A stretch of 64,000 bases of DNA from Streptomyces sp. SAT1 (GTDB taxonomy: Bacteria > Actinomycetota > Actinomycetes > Streptomycetales > Streptomycetaceae): contig NZ_CP015849.1 of NCBI RefSeq assembly GCF_001654495.1, positions 2,122,501 through 2,186,500 on the forward strand. The letters run 5' to 3'. Position 1 is the first letter of the stretch. Each line of letters begins with the position of its first letter. The notes beneath the pieces are model-generated. The model was given only the letters and a program-made list of their open reading frames with translations, was not told the DNA's origin and ran no database searches. This document shows, piece by piece, positions 35,745 to 45,823 of this stretch. The position numbers and the translations under genes were made by a program.

Positions 35745-36093
35745 CGTTCCGGAAACTGAGCTTCACAGAAGCCGACACAGCCGCGCACAATCCCACACAT
35801 CTGTTTCCCGGGCCGATCCGGCCCCGCAGTGCCCCGCAGTCGCACCGCCCGCAGTCGAACCGCCCGCCGCGCACCGCCCGGCAACTCCTCGGCACCACGG
35901 CACAGCACGACCGGCACAGCACCACCGCACCAGACGTGCACGACCGGCACCACCGGCACTCCCGGCTCCACCGGCACTCCCGGCTCCACCGGCACCACCC
36001 CCACAGCGTCGCCGCACCGCCATGTACTGCCATGTACTGCCCCGCACCGCTCGCACCGCCGGACCACCCGCACCCACATCGAGGATGATGACC
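35745..36093 (+). other. repeat-rich leader of the sugar ABC operon
   Basis: A 349 bp non-coding stretch before the binding-protein gene. It contains GTTCCGGAAAC near 35751, then several tandem motifs: CCCCGCAGT and CCGCCCGCAGTCG copies (35820-35870), a 19-20 bp unit CCGGCACTCCCGGCTCCA repeated around 35955-36000, and GCCATGTACT twice at 36020-36040. I see no gene and no confident promoter. Confidence 0.5.
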
Positions 36094-37203
36094 ATGCGCA
36101 ACCGCAGAGCCGCACTCGCCGCCCCCGCCACCGCCGCCTGCCTCCTCCTGGCCCTGTCCGCCTGCGGGCAGAACAGCGAGGGCGGCAGCAAGGAGGACAA
36201 GAGCGGCGCCAAGGGCGGCACCATCGGTGTCGCGATGCCGACCAAGTCGTCCGAGCGGTGGATCGCCGACGGCAACAACGTTGTCAAGAACCTGGAGTCC
36301 AAGGGCTACAAGGCCAAGCTGGTCTTCGGCGAGGACGACCCGGACACCCAGGTCTCGCAGATCGAGAACCTGATCACCCAGGGCGTCAAGGGCCTGATCG
36401 TCGCCGCCATCGACAACAAGTCCCTGAACAACGTGCTCCAGCAGGCCGCCGACGCCAAGATCCCGGTCATCTCCTACGACCGGCTGATCCTCGGGACCAA
36501 GAACGTCGACTACTACGCCTCCTTCGACAACGAGAAGGTCGGGCAGCTCCAGGCCGGTTACATCGTCGAGCAGCTCGGTCTGAAGAGCGGCAAGGGCCCC
36601 TTCAACGTCGAGCTGTTCGCCGGTTCCAACGACGACAACAACACCAAGTACTTCTTCGACGGCGCGCTGAGCGTCCTCAAGCCGTACATCGACGGCAAGA
36701 AGCTGGTCGTCAGGTCCGGCCAGACGAAGCTGAACCAGGTGACCACGCTGCGCTGGGACGGCGCCACCGCCCAGCGGCGCATGGACGACATCCTCACCTC
36801 GGCCTACAAGAGCGCCCGGGTCGACGCCGTCCTGTCCCCCTACGACGGCATCTCCATCGGTGTGCTGTCCGCGCTGAAGTCGGACGGCTACGGCTCCGGC
36901 AGCAAGCCGCTGCCCGTCATCACGGGCCAGGACGCCGAGCTGGCCTCGGTGAAGTCGATCATCGCCGGGCAGCAGACGCAGACCGTCTACAAGGACACCC
37001 GCAAGCTCGCCGAGGTCGCCTCGACGATGGTCGACGACGTCCTCAACGGCAAGAAGCCCGAGGTCAACGACACCAAGTCGTACGACAACGGCGCCAAGGT
37101 GGTGCCGTCCTACCTGCTCCAGCCGGTCAGCGTCGACAAGACGAACTACGAGGACGTCCTGGTCAAGGGCGGCTACTACACCGACGCGCAACTGGGCAAG
37201 TAG
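36094..37203 (+). CDS. ChvE-type multiple-sugar-binding lipoprotein
   Basis: 369 residues. Lipoprotein signal with lipobox LSAC (Cys about residue 23), then a periplasmic-binding-protein type 1 domain: [110 protein letters not shown]. This pattern is that of ChvE/XylF, which bind xylose, glucose, galactose or arabinose. It is the solute receptor for the ATPase and permease downstream. GAGGA precedes ATG 36094; ATGs at 36085 and 36088 are alternatives. Confidence 0.9.
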
Positions 37204-37265
37204 CCCCCTCCCGCACCCACCGGTACGACCACCACCGAACCGACCACCGACCGGAAGGCACGACC

Positions 37266-38888
37266 ATGGCGGGACCCGTCCTGGAAATGCGCTCGATCGT
37301 CAAGACCTTTCCCGGTGTCAAAGCGCTGTCGGACGTCACCCTGACCGTCCGCCGGGGCGAGGTCCACGCCATCTGCGGGGAGAACGGCGCCGGCAAGTCC
37401 ACCCTGATGAAGGTGCTCTCCGGCGTGCATCCGCACGGGAGTTACGAGGGCGAGATCCTCTTCGAGGGCGAGACCTGCCGGTTCCGGGACATCCGGGCCA
37501 GCGAACAGCGCGGCATCGTCATCATCCACCAGGAACTGGCGCTGGTGCCCCATCTCTCCCTCGCGGAGAACATCTTCCTCGGCAACGAACACGCCAGGCG
37601 CGGGTTCATCGACTGGAACGACACGCTCAGGCACGCCGCGCAACTGCTGCGCCGCGTCGGCCTCGACGACCACCCGGAGACCCGGGTCTGCGACATCGGG
37701 GTCGGCAGGCAGCAGCTCGTGGAGATCGCCAAGGCGCTGTCGAAGTCGGTGAAGCTGCTCATCCTGGACGAGCCGACGGCCGCGCTCAACGACGAGGACA
37801 GCGGCAAACTCCTCGATCTCATCCTGGAGTTGAAGAACCAGGGCATCACCTCGATCATCATCTCCCACAAGCTGAACGAGATCCGCAAGGTCGCCGACTC
37901 GGTGACGATCCTGCGCGACGGCCGCACCATCGAGACGCTCGACGTGCGGGCCGCCGCCACCACCGAGGAACGCATCATCTCCGGGATGGTCGGCCGCGAC
38001 CTCGACCACCGCTTCCCCGAACGCACCCCGCACCGGCCCGAGGAGGGCGCGGCACCGGCCCTGGAGATCCGCGGCTGGACCGTGTTCCACCCGATCGACC
38101 AGCAGCGCAAGGTCGTCGACGACGTGTCGCTCCAGGTGCGGCGCGGGGAGATCGTCGGCATCGCGGGCCTGATGGGCGCCGGCCGCACCGAGCTGGCCAT
38201 GAGCGTCTTCGGCCGCTCCTACGGGCGCTACGCGGCCGGCACGGTCCTCAAGGACGGCACCGAGATCCGTACGAAGACCGTCGCGGAGGCGGTCGGGCAC
38301 GGCATCGCGTACGTCACCGAGGACCGCAAGCACTACGGCCTGAACCTCATCGACACCATCAACCGCAACATCTCGCTGACCGCGCTGCGGAAGGTCGCCC
38401 GGCGGGGCGTGGTCGACGAGCACCGGGAACGGCAGGTCGCCGAGGGGTTCCGCACCTCCATGAACATCAAGGCGCCGACCGTGTTCGAGCCGGCGGGCAA
38501 GCTGTCCGGCGGCAACCAGCAGAAGGTCGTCCTCAGTAAGTGGATCTTCTCCGGGCCGGACGTGCTGATCCTGGACGAGCCCACCCGGGGCATCGACGTG
38601 GGCGCCAAGTACGAGATCTACACGGTGATCGACCGGCTGGCCGCGCAGGGCAAGGCGGTCGTCTTCATCTCCTCCGAGCTGCCGGAACTGCTCGGCATGT
38701 GCGACCGGATCTACACCATGGCCGCCGGCCGACTGACCGGCGAGGTGCCGCGCGCCGAGGCCACCCAGGAGGTGCTGATGCGCCGTATGACGAAAGACCC
38801 GCAGGACCCGCAGGACCCCCGGGCCGCCCGGATCTCCCAGGACTCTCAGGACTCTCAGGACTCTCAGGACGAAGAGGTATCGCGATGA
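37266..38888 (+). CDS. sugar ABC importer ATPase, two-domain (XylG/MmsA type)
   Basis: 540 residues with two ABC domains. First: Walker [10 protein letters not shown], signature [15 protein letters not shown], Walker [12 protein letters not shown]. Second: degenerate Walker [12 protein letters not shown], signature [14 protein letters not shown], Walker [17 protein letters not shown]. This is the standard arrangement of the ribose/xylose class. The C-terminus is extended by simple repeats (DPQDPQDP, then [14 protein letters not shown]) that conserved family members lack. ATGA overlap with the permease gene. Confidence 0.94.
38838..38870 (+). repeat. 9 bp tandem repeat in ATPase tail
   Basis: CAGGACTCT is repeated in three full copies plus CAGGAC, encoding (QDS)3QD at the extreme C-terminus. 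The repeat is in frame, so slippage would change the tail length without a frameshift. Confidence 0.85.
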
Positions 38889-40129
38889 GTACGGATGTGA
38901 GCGCCAAGAGCCCGGCCCCGGCGCCGCCGGGCCGGGCCGGGGCGGAGTCCGGCGGCGGACTGCTCCAGCTGATGCTGGGCGGGCTGCGCCGCAACATGCG
39001 CCAGTACGGCATGCTGATCGCGCTCGGCCTGATCGTCGTCCTCTTCGAGATCTGGACCGACGGCGATCTGCTGCTGCCGCGCAACGTCTCCAACCTGGTC
39101 CTCCAGAACAGCTACATCCTGATCCTGGCCATCGGCATGATGCTGGTGATCATCGCCGGGCACATCGACCTGTCGGTCGGCTCGCTCACGGCGTTCGTGG
39201 GCGCCGTGGCGGCCGTGCTCACCGTCAGCCACCATCTCGCGTGGCCCGTCGCGGTGGTGCTGTGCCTGCTGGTGGGCGCGGCGGCGGGCTCGCTGCAAGG
39301 GTTCCTGATCGCGTATCTGGGGATACCGTCGTTCATCGTCACCCTCGCCGGGATGCTGCTCTTCCGCGGGCTGACGGAGATCTTGCTCAAGGGGCAGACC
39401 CTCGGCCCGTTCCCGGACGGCCTGCAGAAGTTCGGCAACGGCTTCCTGCCCGAGGCGGGCCCGCACACCAACTACCACAATCCGACCCTGCTCCTGGGCC
39501 TCGTCCTCGTCGCCTCCGTGGTCTGGCAGGAGGTGCGCGACCGGCGCCGCCAGCAGGAGTTCTCCCTGGACGTGCTGCCCGCGCGGCTGTTCGCGCTCAA
39601 GCTCGTCGCGCTGGTCGCCGCGGTGCTGGTCGTCACCCTGCTGCTGGCCAGCTACAAGGGCGCGCCGATCGTGCTGATCGTCCTCGGCGCGCTGGTCGTC
39701 GGTTACGGCTATGTGATGCGCAACGCGGTCTTCGGCCGCCACATCTACGCGATCGGCGGCAACCTGCCGGCCGCGAAGCTGTCCGGCGTCAAGGACCGGC
39801 GGGTCACCTTCCAGGTGTTCCTGAACATGGGTGTGCTCGCCGCCCTGGCCGGCCTGGTCGTCGCCGCCCGGCTCAACGCGGCCTCGCCGAAGGCGGGCGT
39901 CAACTACGAGCTGGAGGCCATCGCCTCCTCCTTCATCGGCGGCGCCTCCATGAGCGGCGGTGTCGGCACCGTGCTCGGCGCGATCATCGGCGGTCTCGTC
40001 CTCGGCGTGCTCAACAACGGCATGAACCTGCTCAGCGTCGGCACCGACTGGCAGCAGGTCATCAAGGGCCTCGCCCTGCTCGCGGCGGTCGGCTTCGACG
40101 TGTGGAACAAGCGCAGGTCCGGCTCCTGA
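38885..40129 (+). CDS. sugar ABC importer permease (XylH type)
   Basis: 414 residues with about ten membrane helices. The BPD-transporter-2 core is clear: [23 protein letters not shown] (about residues 75-100), [16 protein letters not shown], and the C-terminal [37 protein letters not shown]. The EAA-like loop contacts the ATPase. Overlaps the ATPase stop by 4 bp. Closes the importer operon, with a strong terminator downstream. Confidence 0.94.
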
Positions 40130-40214
40130 GACCGGGCGCCCGCCCCGCCCGCCGCGCACCGTCCCGCGGACGTCCGCACCGGCGGGCGGCCCGTGCCCGC
40201 GGGCTTTCCCACCG

Positions 40215-40249
40215 GCGGGCGGCCCGTGCCCCGCGCACGGGCCGCCCGC
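40215..40249. terminator. bidirectional terminator after the sugar permease
   Basis: GCGGGCGGCCCGTGC and its exact complement (15 bp stem) with a 5 nt loop lie between the convergent permease and Rrf2 genes. A direct repeat of CACCGGCGGGCGGCCCGTGC occurs at about 40177 and 40210. Confidence 0.85.
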
Positions 40250-40253
40250 GCGG

Positions 40254-40721
40254 TCACGGGTTCTCCCACGCCGCCGGTTCCGCCGCCAGGGTCCGTACCG
40301 TCTCCGGCAGGGCGCCCGAGGCGATGTCGGCGAGGGTGACGCCCTCCAGGATCCGGCGGACATTGGCGCGCAGCGCGATCCACAGGGGCAGCAGCGGCTC
40401 GGCCGAGCCCGTGTAGGTCAGGCCGGTGGGGCGTTCGCCGCGTACGGACACGATGGGGCCGTCCACCGCGCGGATGACGTCGGCCACCGTGATCTGCGCC
40501 GCGTCCCGGGCCAGGGTGTAGCCGCCGCCCCCGCCGCGCCGGCTGGTGACCAGGCCCGCGCGGCGCAGGTCGCCGAGGATGCCCTCCAGGAACTTGTGCG
40601 GGATGCCCTGCTCGGCGGCGACCGTCTCCGCCTTCACCGGGCCCGCCTGGTCCTGCACCCCTCGTACGGCCAGTTCCAGAACCGCCCGTACCGCGTAGTC
40701 CGCCCGTGCCGAGATCCTCAT
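40254..40721 (-). CDS. Rrf2 family transcriptional regulator, cysteine-free
   Basis: 155 residues. Rrf2 winged helix: MRISARADYAVRAVLELAV, QGIPHKFLEGILGDLRRAGLVTSRRGGGGGYTLARDAAQITVADVIRAVDGP (about residues 1-85). It contains no cysteine at all, so it cannot hold an IscR/NsrR/RsrR-type iron-sulfur cluster and may sense something else or use other ligands. ATG 40721; CACAAT (40728-40733) ends 6 nt upstream, suggesting a leaderless transcript. Divergent from the GH35 gene. Confidence 0.88.
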   Translation of the reverse strand: MRISARADYAVRAVLELAVRGVQDQAGPVKAETVAAEQGIPHKFLEGILGDLRRAGLVTSRRGGGGGYTLARDAAQITVADVIRAVDGPIVSVRGERPTGLTYTGSAEPLLPLWIALRANVRRILEGVTLADIASGALPETVRTLAAEPAAWENP

Positions 40722-40798
40722 GGGTCCATTGTGGGGCCCGGGACAGTGGAGAATGGCGGTGCCCGCGCCCCGTACCATCCGCCCGGGAGGCACTCACC

Positions 40799-43603
40799 TT
40801 GGCGCTCAGCAGACGTACATTCAGCGCCCTCGCGGGCTCCGCCGCGCTCGGTCTCGCACTGGGCGGCAGCGGTGGGCCGGGGGCGCCGGCGGCGTTCGCC
40901 GCGCACGGGGTGCCGACGGGTCCGCCGCCGCCTGTCCCGGCCGCCGACGGGCGGCGCCACACCGTGGCCTTCGACCACTACTCGCTGCTGGTGGACGGCA
41001 GGCGGCTGGTGCTGTGGTCCGGCGAGATGCACCCGTTCCGGCTGCCCAGCCCCGGCCTGTGGCGGGACGTCCTCCAGAAGATGCGGGCGCACGGCTACAA
41101 CGCGGTCACCGCGCGGGTGGCGTGGAACTACCACTCCGCCGCCCCGGGCGCGTACGACTTCACGGGCGTGCGGGACCTCGGGCTGTTCCTGCGCACCGCC
41201 GCCGAGACCGGGCTCTACGTCGTGCTGCGGCCGGGCCCGCGCATCGGCGCCGACGTGGACGGCGGCGGCCTGCCCGGCTGGCTGCCCGCGGCCGCGGGCG
41301 CCTCGCCGACCGCCGACCCCGGGTACGCGCGGCACGCCGAGGAGTGGCTGGGCCGGGTCGACGCGATCGCCGCCCGGCACCTGTACACCCGGGGCGACGG
41401 CACGGTGCTGCTCTACCAGGTGGACAGCGGGGCGGCGGCGGACACCGGCGGCGCCCTGGTGTCCCGGCTGCTCGACAAGGTCCGCGCCGACGGCATCGAC
41501 GTCCCCCTCTTCCACGGCGACCGCGGCGGCCGGTGGATGCCGCAGTCCTTCCCCCGCCCCGCGGGGTTCCTGTCGGACACCGGCGGCGGGCACGGCACCG
41601 GGGCACCGCGCGCACGGGACGCGGCCGCCGTGCGGCGCGCCCAGCTCACGGACCTGGCCGGCGGCATCGCCCTGCACAACGTGTACCCGGCCTTCGGCGG
41701 CACCTCCTGGGGCTGGCTGCCCGGACCGGGCATGCCCGCGTCCTACGACCACGGCGCCGCCATCGACGAGGGACGCCAGGTGACCGCGGAGATGGTGCCC
41801 GCGCACCAGATCGGGCACATGCTGCGGCATCTGCCCGACTTCGCCAAGCTGGAGCGGGCCGGGGGCGCGAGCGCGCGCGGGCTCACGACGTACCACCTGC
41901 GCAACCCCGACACCGGCGGCCGGGTCCACATCCTGCGCAACGACAGCGACAAGGACGTCTCCTCGCTGCTGCCCGCCGCCGGTGAGGACCTGCCGGTGAC
42001 GGTCCCGGCCAGGGACGCCCGGCTGGCGGTCACCGGGATGCGGCTGGGACTGCTCAGGGTGCGGTACTCCACCGCGCACCCGATGCTGTACCTCTCGGCC
42101 GGGCCGCTGGACATCGTGGTGTTCTGCGGACGGCGCGGTGACTCGGCCCGGCTGGCGCTGGAGGCGGCCGGAGAGCCGATGGTCACCCGGCTCAGCCAGC
42201 AGGTCGCCTATGTGTACGAGCGGCGTCTGGTACGGATCACGGTGCCCTTCGGCACCGGCCTCGCCGGGGCCCGGGTGGAGGCGGGCGAGACCGTCGACCG
42301 GCCGGTGCTGATGCTGTTCGCCGACGACAGGACGTCGTCGCGGCTGTGGCCGTACGAGACTCCGTCGGGCTCGCTGCTGGTCTGCGGGCCGAGGCTGCTG
42401 CGCACCGCCGCCGTCCAGGGGGCCACGCTCCACCTCACCGGCGACACCGTCGAGGCGACGAGGCTGGAGGTCTGGCCCCCGCACGGAGTGACGGCGGTGA
42501 CGTGGAACGGCCGCCCGGTGCGCACCGTCCGCACCGGCTCGGGCAGTCTGCGCTCGGTCGCGCCGCTGGCGGGGGTGGCAAAGGTGGAGCTGCCCGTGCT
42601 GGGCGGCTGGCGGGCGCGGGCGGAGAGTCCCGAGTCCGCGCCCGGCTTCGACGACTCGGCGTGGCGGACCGCCGACCTGGCCTCCGCGGACGGCGGCACG
42701 GCCGGCGCGCGGAAGCAGCCGGTGCTGTCCGCCGACGCCTACGGCTTCCACTACGGCGCTGTCTGGTACCGGGGCGCCTTCACGGACGCCTCGGGCATCG
42801 GGTCGGTGTCGCTGGAGCACGGCGCGGGCCCCGGCGGGCTGCTGATGGCGTGGCTGGACGGGGAGCCGCTGGGCACGCACCAGGTGCCGGGCCCGGGGCA
42901 CGAGGGCGGCGCCGACGCGGGGCACAAGGGCGGCGCCGATGCGGGCACCGCCGTTCTCGCCGTGCCGCCGCACCTGCGGACCGGCGGCCGGCATGTGCTG
43001 GCCGTGCTGGTGCGGCCGGCGGCGCGGGCGCAGGACGACACGGCGCCCGGCACGGCCGCCGGGGCGGCGCGCGGGCTGGCGGCGGTGGACTTCGCCGGGG
43101 GCGAGCCGCGGGTGCGCTGGCGGATCCAGGGCGCGGGCCCGGCCGACCCGGTGCGCGGACCGCTGAACAACGGCGGCCTGCACGGGGAGCGGGAGGGCTG
43201 GCACCTGCCGGGCTTCCTGGACGGCGGCTGGGACAAGGTGTCCTTCCCGCGTGCCGTGCGGCGCCAGGGGGTCACCTGGTACCGGACCACGTTCAAGCCG
43301 TCGGTCGCGGCGGGCACGGACGCCTCGGTGGGGCTGGTGCTCGACGACGACCCGCACCGCGAGTGGCGGGCGCAGGTCTTCCTGAACGGCTGGAACCTGG
43401 GCGAGTACGTCAACGGCGCGGCCGGGCGGCGCCCGCTCGTCCTGCCGGACGGGATCCTGCGCACCCGGGACACCAACACCCTGGCCCTGGCCGTCCTGTC
43501 CGGGGCGGACACGGAGGCGGGGCCCGGCCGGGTGCGGCTGACGCTGCTGGGATCCGCGGCCGGCGGCGTGCCGGTGGTGCCGGTGTCCTCCCCCGGCCGC
43601 TGA
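40799..43603 (+). CDS. GH35-like protein, probably catalytically inactive, Tat-exported
   Basis: 934 residues. N-terminal Tat signal (SRRTFSALAGSAALGLAL). The GH35 barrel is recognisable: WSGEMHPFRLPSPGLWRDVLQKMRAHGYNAVTARVAWNYHS, YVVLRPGPRIGADVDGGGLPGWL, HNVYPAFGGTSWGWLPGPGMPASYDHGAAIDEGRQ. However, the acid/base motif (normally QVENEYG) reads QVDSGAA, and the nucleophile motif (normally AEFGGGW) reads SDTGGGH after a shortened loop. Beta-galactosidase jelly-roll domains follow to the C-terminus. TTG 40799 is used because GGGAGG lies about 10 nt upstream. A carbohydrate-binding or scaffold role is inferred. Confidence 0.8.
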   Translation: MALSRRTFSALAGSAALGLALGGSGGPGAPAAFAAHGVPTGPPPPVPAADGRRHTVAFDHYSLLVDGRRLVLWSGEMHPFRLPSPGLWRDVLQKMRAHGYNAVTARVAWNYHSAAPGAYDFTGVRDLGLFLRTAAETGLYVVLRPGPRIGADVDGGGLPGWLPAAAGASPTADPGYARHAEEWLGRVDAIAARHLYTRGDGTVLLYQVDSGAAADTGGALVSRLLDKVRADGIDVPLFHGDRGGRWMPQSFPRPAGFLSDTGGGHGTGAPRARDAAAVRRAQLTDLAGGIALHNVYPAFGGTSWGWLPGPGMPASYDHGAAIDEGRQVTAEMVPAHQIGHMLRHLPDFAKLERAGGASARGLTTYHLRNPDTGGRVHILRNDSDKDVSSLLPAAGEDLPVTVPARDARLAVTGMRLGLLRVRYSTAHPMLYLSAGPLDIVVFCGRRGDSARLALEAAGEPMVTRLSQQVAYVYERRLVRITVPFGTGLAGARVEAGETVDRPVLMLFADDRTSSRLWPYETPSGSLLVCGPRLLRTAAVQGATLHLTGDTVEATRLEVWPPHGVTAVTWNGRPVRTVRTGSGSLRSVAPLAGVAKVELPVLGGWRARAESPESAPGFDDSAWRTADLASADGGTAGARKQPVLSADAYGFHYGAVWYRGAFTDASGIGSVSLEHGAGPGGLLMAWLDGEPLGTHQVPGPGHEGGADAGHKGGADAGTAVLAVPPHLRTGGRHVLAVLVRPAARAQDDTAPGTAAGAARGLAAVDFAGGEPRVRWRIQGAGPADPVRGPLNNGGLHGEREGWHLPGFLDGGWDKVSFPRAVRRQGVTWYRTTFKPSVAAGTDASVGLVLDDDPHREWRAQVFLNGWNLGEYVNGAAGRRPLVLPDGILRTRDTNTLALAVLSGADTEAGPGRVRLTLLGSAAGGVPVVPVSSPGR

Positions 43604-43907
43604 GTCCCCGGTCCCGGCGGGCGGGGGCCGCCGCCGTCCCCGGACGGGGTCCGTCCCCAGACGGGGTCCGTCCCCGGGCGGGGCCCCGCACTCCGGGCCC
43701 GGGGCACCGCGATCCGGACGCCGGACGCCGTGACCCGGACACCGGACAGGGTGATCCGGACGCCGGGCATCGTGACCCGGGTGCCGGGCGTCGTGATCCG
43801 GGCAGCGCGATCCGGGCGAGAGCGCCGCGAAAGAACCTTTCCCCGGGCCGGTCGGCCGGAGAGGATGGGGGGTCCGGCAGACCGAGGGGGGCGACAAAGG
43901 GAGATGA
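43604..43907 (+). other. gap with two tandem repeat arrays
   Basis: A 304 bp spacer. The first half carries three 17 bp units CCGTCCCCGGACGGGGT (43634-43683), each a small hairpin that may end the GH35 transcript. The second half carries a 21 bp array (43711-43820). A -10-like or ribosome site is visible only near 43898 (AGGGAG) before the metallopeptidase. Confidence 0.6.
43711..43820 (+). repeat. 21 bp tandem repeat array
   Basis: Four full units start at 43711, 43732, 43753 and 43774, alternating GATCCGG and GACCCGG heads, plus shortened units at 43795 and 43809. All full units are exactly 21 bp (7 codons), but no ribosome-binding site or start is attached, so I treat it as non-coding. 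Confidence 0.8.
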
Positions 43908-44438
43908 GTGCGTAGGAAACGGGAGATGCGGCGCCTCGCCGAGACTCTCATCGGCCCGCTCCGGGTACCGGTCCCCGCGGACCCGGAGACATTGTTCGCC
44001 GCCCTCGTCGACTCGGTCGCCGCCTGGCGCGGCCGGCCGGTCGTCGTCCGCCGGGAGATCTTCCCGCCGCACACCGCGAGCGGGCTGTGGCTGGAGGGCG
44101 AGACACAGGACGTGGTGGTCATCGACCGGCGGGCCGCCGCGTGGCACCAGATCGTGATCTTCTGCCACGAGGTGTGGCACATGAGCCGGCGGGACGCGGA
44201 CGCCGCGGGCCCGGTCCCGGCGGGCGGTCCGCCCCGGCCGGTCGCCGCCCGCACCGACTTCAGCCTGGCCGACGAGCAGGAGGCCGACCGGTTCGGCATG
44301 CTCATGGGCGGCAGACTGCGCGGCTGGCTGGAGGAGGCACCGGCGGGCGGCGCGTCCGCCGCGGCCCCCGGCGCCGACGAGGACATCGCCGGACGCATCG
44401 GATCGGCACTCAACTACCGGGGAACACCCAGGACATGA
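43908..44438 (+). CDS. ImmA/IrrE-like HExxH metallopeptidase
   Basis: 176 residues. The zinc motif is HEVWH (about residues 86-90) in IVIFCHEVWHMSR, preceded by VVVIDRRAAAWHQ, with a downstream acidic helix LADEQEADRFGMLMGG that supplies the third ligand. This is the ImmA/IrrE-type fold used by SOS-like repressor proteases and by toxin-annotated proteins. The usual partner XRE repressor is not present next to it. GTG 43908 has AAGGGAG 4 nt upstream; ATG 43926 is an alternative. Its stop overlaps the next start (ATGA). Confidence 0.8.
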   Translation: MRRKREMRRLAETLIGPLRVPVPADPETLFAALVDSVAAWRGRPVVVRREIFPPHTASGLWLEGETQDVVVIDRRAAAWHQIVIFCHEVWHMSRRDADAAGPVPAGGPPRPVAARTDFSLADEQEADRFGMLMGGRLRGWLEEAPAGGASAAAPGADEDIAGRIGSALNYRGTPRT

Positions 44439-45823
44439 GCGGGATGATCAACTACGTCAGCTGCGGCGCGCTGTGGCTGGGCCTGGCGGTGAAGACCCCC
44501 GATCTGGTCCGCCGCCGGCACGATCCGTATCTGCGCGCGCTCTGCGTGGTGCTGGCCCTGGCGGGCACCTGCTTCGTCCTGGGCGCCGCGCCGACGGTCG
44601 GCGCCGTCAACCGGCTCAGCGGCGTGCCGAACATCGCCGCACCGCTCACCTACGCGTCGATCACCGCCTACAGCGCCGCCTCCCAGGTCCTCGTCGTCCA
44701 CTGGCGGGGCGGGGGGCGGGTGCGCCGGGTGACCCGCCGCTGGGTGGCGGCCTACGCCTGCGTGCTCGTCGGCATCGCCGCCCTGTTCGCGCTGGGCGAG
44801 GCGCCGGTGGAGCGCCGTACGGATCTGGACACGTACTACGCGACGACGCCGTTCATCGCCGAGATGATCGTGCTGTACCTGGCCGGGCACCTCGTCGCGG
44901 TGAGCGTCACCACGGTCTCGGCGCTGCGCTGGGCCCGCACGGTGCACGGCTGGCTGCGCGCGGGGCTGGTGATGCTGGGTCTCGGCTCCCTGTGCAGCGC
45001 CGGTTACGCGGTGACCAAGTTCGTCGCGGTGGGGGCCCGTTGGTCCGGGCGCGACTGGTCCTCGCTCGGCACCGACGTGTCACCGGCCGCCGCGGGCCTG
45101 GGCGCGCTGGTGACCTCGGTCGGCATCCTCGTACCGCTGGCGGGGCCACGGCTGACGCGGTGGTGGCGGTCCTGGCGGACGTACAACCGGCTGGCGCCGC
45201 TGGAACGGCTGCTGGACGACCTGCTCACCCGCCACGCCCTCCGGCTGCCCCGCCCGCGCTGGTGCTCCCCGACGACCCGGCTGATGTGGCGCCAGACGAG
45301 CATCCACAACGCGCTCGGCTATCTGGACGCGTTCTTCGACGGCGCCCTGTACGAGCGCACCCGGGCCACGACCCTGGCGGCCACCGGTGACCAGGAGCGG
45401 GCGGAGGCCGCCGCCTGGGCGGCGGTCATCACCGCGGCCCTGGGGCAGCCGTCCGGAGACGGCCCGCGGTCCCCGCACCCGCACGGCGGCGGTACGGCGC
45501 TGGAGGCGGCGGTCCGCGGACCGGCGCCCTCGCCGCCGGCGGGCGGGACCGGCCGGGCGGCGGAGGCCGCCGGAGCGGCCGGGCAGCACCTCGTCCTGCT
45601 CGACGGGATCGGCCCCACGGCGGGCCCCGAGGGCATCGGCGGCCCGTGGCCGGTCCTGCTCGACGGTGTCGGCCGCCCCCCGGCCCCGCTGGACGCCGGG
45701 CAGGGCGAGGGGGCCCGGCCGGGCGGGCGGACCCCCGGCCCCGCGCTGCTCCTGCGGATCGCCGACGCCCTGCGGGCCCCGGAGCCCCCGGCGCCCGGCT
45801 CCCGGCCCTCGGGGGCGGCGTGA
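44435..45823 (+). CDS. MAB_1171c-family seven-helix membrane protein, copy 1
   Basis: 462 residues with seven membrane helices in the first 240 residues and a cytoplasmic helical C-terminus. Shared with copy 2: VNRLSGVPNIAAPLTY, LDTYYATTPFIAEMIVLYLAGH, KFVAVGARWSG, and after the last helix a QTSIHNALGYLDAFFD segment. I recognise the family as MAB_1171c putative transporters, function unproven. The C-terminal tail repeats HLVLLDGIG / PVLLDGVG and is disordered. Translationally coupled to the metallopeptidase gene. Confidence 0.8.
   Translation: MSGMINYVSCGALWLGLAVKTPDLVRRRHDPYLRALCVVLALAGTCFVLGAAPTVGAVNRLSGVPNIAAPLTYASITAYSAASQVLVVHWRGGGRVRRVTRRWVAAYACVLVGIAALFALGEAPVERRTDLDTYYATTPFIAEMIVLYLAGHLVAVSVTTVSALRWARTVHGWLRAGLVMLGLGSLCSAGYAVTKFVAVGARWSGRDWSSLGTDVSPAAAGLGALVTSVGILVPLAGPRLTRWWRSWRTYNRLAPLERLLDDLLTRHALRLPRPRWCSPTTRLMWRQTSIHNALGYLDAFFDGALYERTRATTLAATGDQERAEAAAWAAVITAALGQPSGDGPRSPHPHGGGTALEAAVRGPAPSPPAGGTGRAAEAAGAAGQHLVLLDGIGPTAGPEGIGGPWPVLLDGVGRPPAPLDAGQGEGARPGGRTPGPALLLRIADALRAPEPPAPGSRPSGAA

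Follow-up and report, generated by a model that had tools for sequence, protein, structure and literature searches.

A Streptomyces GH35 protein without its catalytic glutamates is probably a pseudoenzyme retained by selection

The window, a 64,000-nucleotide stretch of DNA from Streptomyces sp. SAT1, encodes a multidomain GH35 protein in which both catalytic glutamates are absent. This raises the question whether such a protein is still kept by the cell and, if so, for which role. In the ORF listing the gene is an uninterrupted frame of 934 amino acids plus stop (Table 1). It starts with TTG, and GGAGG lies 8 nt upstream in the window DNA. The aligned relatives shown that reach position 1 carry Leu or Val there, which fits TTG or GTG starts. 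GC contents of 0.77, 0.58 and 0.97 at the three codon positions displayed a coding pattern. The N-terminus LALSRRTF, which we take, from this motif, to be a twin-arginine-type (Tat-type) signal, agrees with the export signal predicted in an earlier, sequence-only reading of this DNA. The GH35 barrel and later domains were likewise recognizable, as that reading had stated: GH35 (residues 62-211 and a second piece), BetaGal dom3 and ABD2 exceeded their Pfam cut-offs, while BetaGal dom2 and gal-bd stayed below. Family membership is indicated by the profile (PF01301, 185.8 bits against a cut-off of 27) and by fold matches to GH35 structures. ARAGORN called a tRNA-Gly within the frame (43222-43311, forward strand). 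No Rfam family reached threshold over 39500-44500, this call included, so that the tRNA is probably a false positive.

Table 1. Features of the gene and its neighbourhood in the window
Feature	Position	Strand	Basis or remark
Whole gene, GH35-derived, catalytic residues lost	40799-43603	+	Open frame, TTG start, Pfam, relatives
Signal and linker, residues 1-49	40799-40945	+	0 of 16 family-invariant columns changed
GH35 barrel region, residues 50-344	40946-41830	+	191 family-invariant columns: 29 changed, 30 deleted
RIGAD, residues 148-152 (YINAE in intact relatives)	41240-41254	+	Alignment
QVDSGAA for QIENEYD, residues 207-213; acid/base Glu absent	41417-41437	+	Alignment, profile alignment
Loop deletion junction F251/P252	41549-41554	+	41 aa missing against L001
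SDTGGGH for PEFGGGW, residues 259-265; nucleophile position E260D	41573-41593	+	Alignment
BetaGal dom2 and dom3, residues 345-600	41831-42598	+	1 of 40 invariant columns changed
Two all-beta (ABD2) stretches, residues 601-934	42599-43600	+	31 of 147 invariant columns changed; 8 of 147 in sister L015
Co-eroded stretch, residues 741-755, first all-beta domain	43019-43063	+	Invariants lost with the active site in 3 of 4 lineages (not L016)
Divergent Rrf2-family regulator	40254-40721	-	Pfam PF02082; 62 of 80 related loci
Sugar ABC importer (Peripla_BP_4, ABC ATPase, BPD_transp_2)	36085-40129	+	Permease in flank of 22 of 80 loci

Comparison with relatives confirmed the two motif exchanges and the intervening loop deletion described in the sequence-only reading. 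QVDSGAA and SDTGGGH stand where relatives show ENEY and PE(F/S)GGG, and 41 amino acids are missing between them against the relative L001. The extent of change had been understated: PYINAE has become PRIGAD, with Tyr, Asn and Glu replaced by Arg, Gly and Asp, and VVYTSYDY has become GMPASYDH. The further conserved positions altered in this way (Y148R, N150G, E152D, Y313P and Y318H) are presumably pocket residues. In a profile alignment to the characterized enzyme 1tg7_A, its catalytic positions fell on the changed motifs; by hand count, chain residue 160 corresponds to the second Glu of ENEY and residue 259 to that of PEF. With an offset of +40 these become E200 and E299, which we take to be the catalytic numbers of the Penicillium enzyme. 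For the human enzyme, the excerpted text of PMC6566704 gives Glu188 as acid/base and Glu268 as nucleophile. The window protein has neither the acid/base Glu in ENEY nor the nucleophile Glu of PEF. The aligned AF2 model was good in parts of the all-beta region and poor at the active site (pLDDT below 50 at residues 147-169, 210-216, 240-272 and 290-320), so catalytic geometry was left aside. As a homologue of enzymes that itself lacks residues needed for catalysis, the window protein qualifies by its sequence as a pseudoenzyme.

The same kind of loss was found in other strains. A locus search yielded 141 stretches encoding a relative, and the best 80 of the 141, all from Streptomyces, were kept. 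Most of these 80 loci possess ENEY and PE(F/S)GGG with the loop between them. One or both catalytic Glu are missing from eight of 95 aligned rows (the window protein, L015, L016, L020, L063, L067, L075 and L085). Six others (L009, L027, L039, L055, L056 and L061) keep both and have the N and/or E of YINAE changed; they are possibly intermediates or altered-activity enzymes. In a genus sample of 101 genomes, 24 had a match at E 1e-90 or better, and 20 of them were counted as carriers after exclusion of G023, G025, G102 and G128, whose best matches were 43-44% identical. Sixteen carriers are intact and four degenerate: the window genome, G027 (with L085), G109 (with L015) and G124 (with L131). 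L131 (1426-4113 of G124, reverse strand) is an in-frame protein of 896 aa that has lost the barrel segments surrounding the two catalytic positions and retains the signal, dom3 and ABD2; it is the extreme end of the loss series. Conservation across orthologues, a check proposed in the sequence-only reading, was thus mixed: the motifs are intact in most relatives, and a catalytic Glu is lost in 9 of 99 subfamily rows (three row pairs being identical), a count that does not give a population frequency, since the 80 loci were picked by similarity to a degenerate query.

These nine rows represent at least four losses. A tree of 94 rows, eight of them degenerate, calculated without the active-site columns and without the second GH35 protein of the window genome required four changes, all four forced by starred branches, in the lineages of the window protein and L015, of L020, of L016, and of L063, L067, L075 and L085 (the L063 clade). 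A second tree of 48 chosen rows, the nine degenerate ones included, again gave four losses. The loss in L016 consists of a single Glu-to-Ala substitution, and the tree position of L131 is unsure, its branch being long. The sister protein L015, 76-78% identical to the window protein, shares the R/G/D changes in PYINAE, the acid/base loss and the loop deletion, and has kept the nucleophile. As the acid/base is replaced differently in the two proteins and the nucleophile is present in L015, it is the PYINAE changes and the loop deletion that argue for a loss before their split.

The search of the window genome, a single contig of 7.47 Mb, turned up no intact member of the subfamily. The one other GH35 gene found there is of another type (36% identical over residues 62-242). 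In G027, just one match passed the threshold of E 0.001. Genomes of degenerate carriers were smaller than those of intact carriers (mean 7.6 versus 9.7 Mb; 4 versus 16 genomes; Mann-Whitney p 0.014, post hoc), which fits a pseudoenzyme as well as a decaying gene.

Besides the regulator and importer listed in Table 1, the neighbours in the window include DUF6545 proteins, an FAD enzyme, an SMP-30-type lactonase and an IclR regulator. In tblastn searches of flanks of up to 8 kb, some cut short by contig ends, 39 of the 80 loci had the lactonase and 40 had the IclR gene. L015 and L020, each with the permease and Rrf2 nearby, have good support for sitting at the same site; for L016, with Rrf2 alone, the support is partial. 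In the flanks of L063, L067 and L075, Rrf2 was not found by tblastn, and what these flanks have in common with the window is limited to relatives of the DUF6545 proteins and of the protein encoded at 43908-44438. The common locus therefore holds for part of the family only. Around the L015 gene (3300-16100) lie extra genes, named by eye from their translations, that resemble an aldose epimerase, a GH51-type arabinofuranosidase and a second sugar ABC importer; the matching places in the window hold only about 125 and 300 bases.

We consider it likely that the product of the window gene is a pseudoenzyme of GH35 descent, retained for an extracellular role that involves no catalysis. Its ancestor would have been a fungal-type multidomain beta-galactosidase exported by the Tat pathway, with an active site that is still intact in most relatives. 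In the lineage common to the window gene and L015 the need for catalysis would have ended; the acid/base Glu, nearby conserved residues and the loop would then have been lost, largely via GC-biased drift, while purifying selection held the export signal and much of the remainder. The retained job would be non-catalytic and extracellular: the all-beta domains would most likely bind glycans or serve a structural purpose, and may have done so already in the active enzyme. The pseudoenzyme proposed in the sequence-only reading gains support, as far as sequence evidence goes, from the loss of the acid/base, the nucleophile and other residues, from the separate losses in relatives and from continued constraint.

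That constraint has to be weighed against the main rival explanation, a slow decay in which the whole gene is relaxed and heading to loss with no function retained. The sequence-only reading had concluded that the gene is under selection from its signal and long frame. The conclusion stands, and the reason given for it is insufficient: at 74% GC a long open frame is no proof of selection, and an antisense frame here reaches 1231 aa. Better evidence comes from the pair of the window gene and L015, which shows no stops and has six of six indels in multiples of three over a dS of about 0.85. Differences at codon positions 1, 2 and 3 numbered 130, 114 and 210 (0.141, 0.123 and 0.227), whereas neutral simulations gave 0.17-0.18, 0.19-0.21 and 0.13-0.15 with 2.3-3.8 stops per copy. 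Two pairs of the L063 clade had two aligner gaps each whose lengths are not divisible by three; their frames are open. Pairwise omega was 0.145 for the window gene and L015, 0.178 for L063-L067, 0.116 for L063-L075 and 0.101 for L075-L085, and 0.053-0.100 for six intact pairs. Because the estimator errs towards low values (0.37-0.90 in 18 simulated neutral pairs), likelihood ratios against an omega of 1 overstate the case, and this simulated range was used for comparison instead. All degenerate pairs lay below it over the whole gene, which speaks against decay; segment 345-510 of L063-L067, at 0.446, lay inside.

Branch models, to which the pairwise simulation control does not extend, located the relaxation. 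The window branch had an omega of 0.171 overall, 0.12 in the barrel (background 0.054, about half), 0.054 in residues 345-600 and 0.303 in residues 601-934, where the L015 branch had 0.083. Residues 601-934 of the window copy are thus loosening and near neutral (0.303 against a lowest simulated value of 0.37), which, together with the invariant columns changed there (Table 1), favours decay. Omega was 0.17 overall and 0.244 in residues 345-600 on the L020 branch, and 0.125 on the long L131 branch. In the L063 clade, relaxation was strong in the barrel (0.127 versus 0.045, LRT 21.4) and weak in residues 601-934 (0.111 versus 0.073, LRT 4.2). Against its background, no relaxation was seen in residues 345-600 (LRT 1.1), a constraint that a gene heading to loss would not be expected to show.

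Columns were termed invariant when identical in at least 74 of 75 intact rows, with L080 (partial) and L073 excluded. When the window protein was compared with L015, change was rarer in invariant than in variable columns for the barrel (27 of 161 versus 40 of 130, p 0.005) and for dom3 (p 0.035). The difference did not reach significance in the signal and linker (p 0.28), dom2 (p 0.08), residues 601-780 (p 0.065) or residues 781-934 (14 of 77 versus 21 of 72, p 0.13). Over four pairs of the L063 clade, invariant columns of residues 781-934 changed less, with p values from 3e-6 to 1e-10. Continued selection is thus evident for the L063 clade and for the greater part of the window protein. The window gene as a whole has been retained by selection after the loss; for residues 601-934 this is not clear.

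Erosion was concentrated in the barrel. Beyond the counts for the window protein in Table 1, the 191 invariant barrel columns were changed and lost, respectively, as follows: 24 and 20 in L015, 10 and 1 in L016, 17 and 36 in L020, 29 and 2 in L063, 28 and 4 in L067, 34 and 21 in L075, and 41 and 18 in L085. The 16 invariant columns of signal and linker were unchanged in each of the eight degenerate rows, a further point against decay. Of the 77 in residues 781-934, one was changed in L015, L020, L063, L067 and L075, two in L016, four in L085 and 13 in the window protein. Relaxation in the L063 clade is thus centred on the barrel, with the signal and most all-beta positions retained. The co-erosion of residues 741-755 with the active site suggests that this stretch adjoins the pocket, perhaps as an unrecognized pocket loop in intact relatives.

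The direction of change is what decay would leave behind. In columns at least 97% conserved, 45 GC-raising and 8 GC-lowering changes were counted in the window protein, 23 and 6 in L015, 12 and 5 in L020, and 17-24 and 4-9 in the L063 clade. The 66 intact rows, again counted without L080 and L073, showed the opposite (15 versus 27 in sum), and L016 lacked the excess (3 versus 5). Such an excess is predicted by lost constraint under GC-biased mutation. Consistent with this, gene GC exceeded flank GC by 0.03-0.05 in six of seven degenerate rows (0.019 in L016), compared with a mean of 0.011 and a maximum of 0.040 in 74 other loci. The gene is also often absent: a match at E 1e-200 or better occurred in 11 of 49 genus genomes, the window genome included. 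Weighed against omega values of 0.10-0.18 after the loss, these observations leave slow decay unlikely, although it is the alternative that fares best.

Far less probable is a protein that is still an active enzyme, its catalytic residues substituted or moved elsewhere or its activity altered. Its best argument is recurrence. E152D (41252-41254 in the window) occurs in seven of nine degenerate rows and the Asn of ENEY has become Asp in six of nine, in separate lineages, and neither is found in 82 intact rows. The G-A-D sequence with E152D was also present in L027, L039 and L061, which have both catalytic Glu. Plain GC drift does not explain E152D, since Glu to Asp adds no GC at codon positions 1-2; the site may retain some constraint or be put to a different use. 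The barrel is still constrained on the window branch, and in the excerpted text of PMC6566704 the nucleophile of the GH35-related GlmA was missed by alignment. On the other side, lineages differ in what stands at the acid/base position (Q, R, G, A or no residue at all), the nucleophile segment is absent from L020 and L131, and the window protein has lost both catalytic Glu and did not gain Asp at the Asn of ENEY. No Glu gained in the barrel is common to more than four of nine degenerate rows. The relocated residues that the sequence-only reading had offered as an alternative are therefore mostly unsupported, the two recurrent Asp gains aside, and because Glu-to-Asp recurs, an altered activity keeps a small probability. 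We also considered positive selection for a new site and set it aside: at conserved columns the changes in the window protein are mostly GC-raising, as in drift, although E152D is not explained in this way. The recurrent Asp and the thin set of shared neighbours in the L063 clade lower our trust in the pseudoenzyme reading. An artefact of sequencing, assembly or frame choice, for which the GC-rich sequence and the tRNA call could be cited, is scarcely credible given the one-contig genome, the losses shared with the independent L015 genome, the coding GC pattern and the failure of that call in Rfam.

How does a GH35-derived pseudoenzyme compare with known systems? The best sequence and fold matches, over nearly the full length, were fungal-type GH35 enzymes (Penicillium 1tg7, A. 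niger 5ift/5ifp, T. reesei 3og2 and A. oryzae 4iug), with TM-scores of 0.76-0.78 by query length. Unlike these, the window protein is devoid of both catalytic Glu, the PYINAE residues and a loop. Chitinase-like lectins are GH18 pseudoenzymes, barrel enzymes turned into binding proteins that kept the sugar-binding cleft; in contrast, the conserved cleft residues of the window protein are changed. One lectin, with a low TM-score, was among the 50 fold matches listed. The intact relatives L001 and L002 (64% and 63% identical in the locus search, 68% each in the multiple alignment) have the same signal and domains and several neighbours in common with the window gene, but keep ENEY, the loop and the nucleophile Glu (PESGGG in L002). 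A GH35 beta-1,3/1,6-galactosidase of Hypocrea jecorina appears among arabinogalactan-degrading enzymes in the excerpted text of PMC8424115, which hints at the ancestral substrate. Inactive GH28 pseudoenzymes of herbivorous beetles matter to the organism and are tied to gene duplication according to the abstract of PMC6549527; the window genome differs in that no intact copy was found there. Glycoside hydrolase pseudoenzymes are already known as a kind. A literature search that included few subscription journals found no GH35 or Streptomyces beta-galactosidase pseudoenzyme. What is unusual here is the occurrence of separate losses with no surviving intact copy in the window genome.

For the pseudoenzyme, the type of the all-beta domains prompts the guess that they bind glycans. 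Any binding would probably involve other surfaces, as changes affect PYINAE, ENEY and the nucleophile position alike. One may go further and suppose that intact Streptomyces copies do two things, cleaving sugars and acting outside the cell through the all-beta scaffold, and that several lineages independently dropped catalysis and kept the scaffold, up to L131, with no intact copy found in the window genome; we put this forward tentatively and would sooner doubt it than rely on it.

The independent losses with so much conserved suggest that the remainder of the protein has a job of its own. Family assignment would label such proteins beta-galactosidases, though they are probably unable to cleave. 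The graded natural series from the intact enzyme through loss of the pocket to deletion of the barrel provides material for studying the role of the non-catalytic GH35 domains, and it also bears on how pseudoenzymes originate without a surviving active copy.
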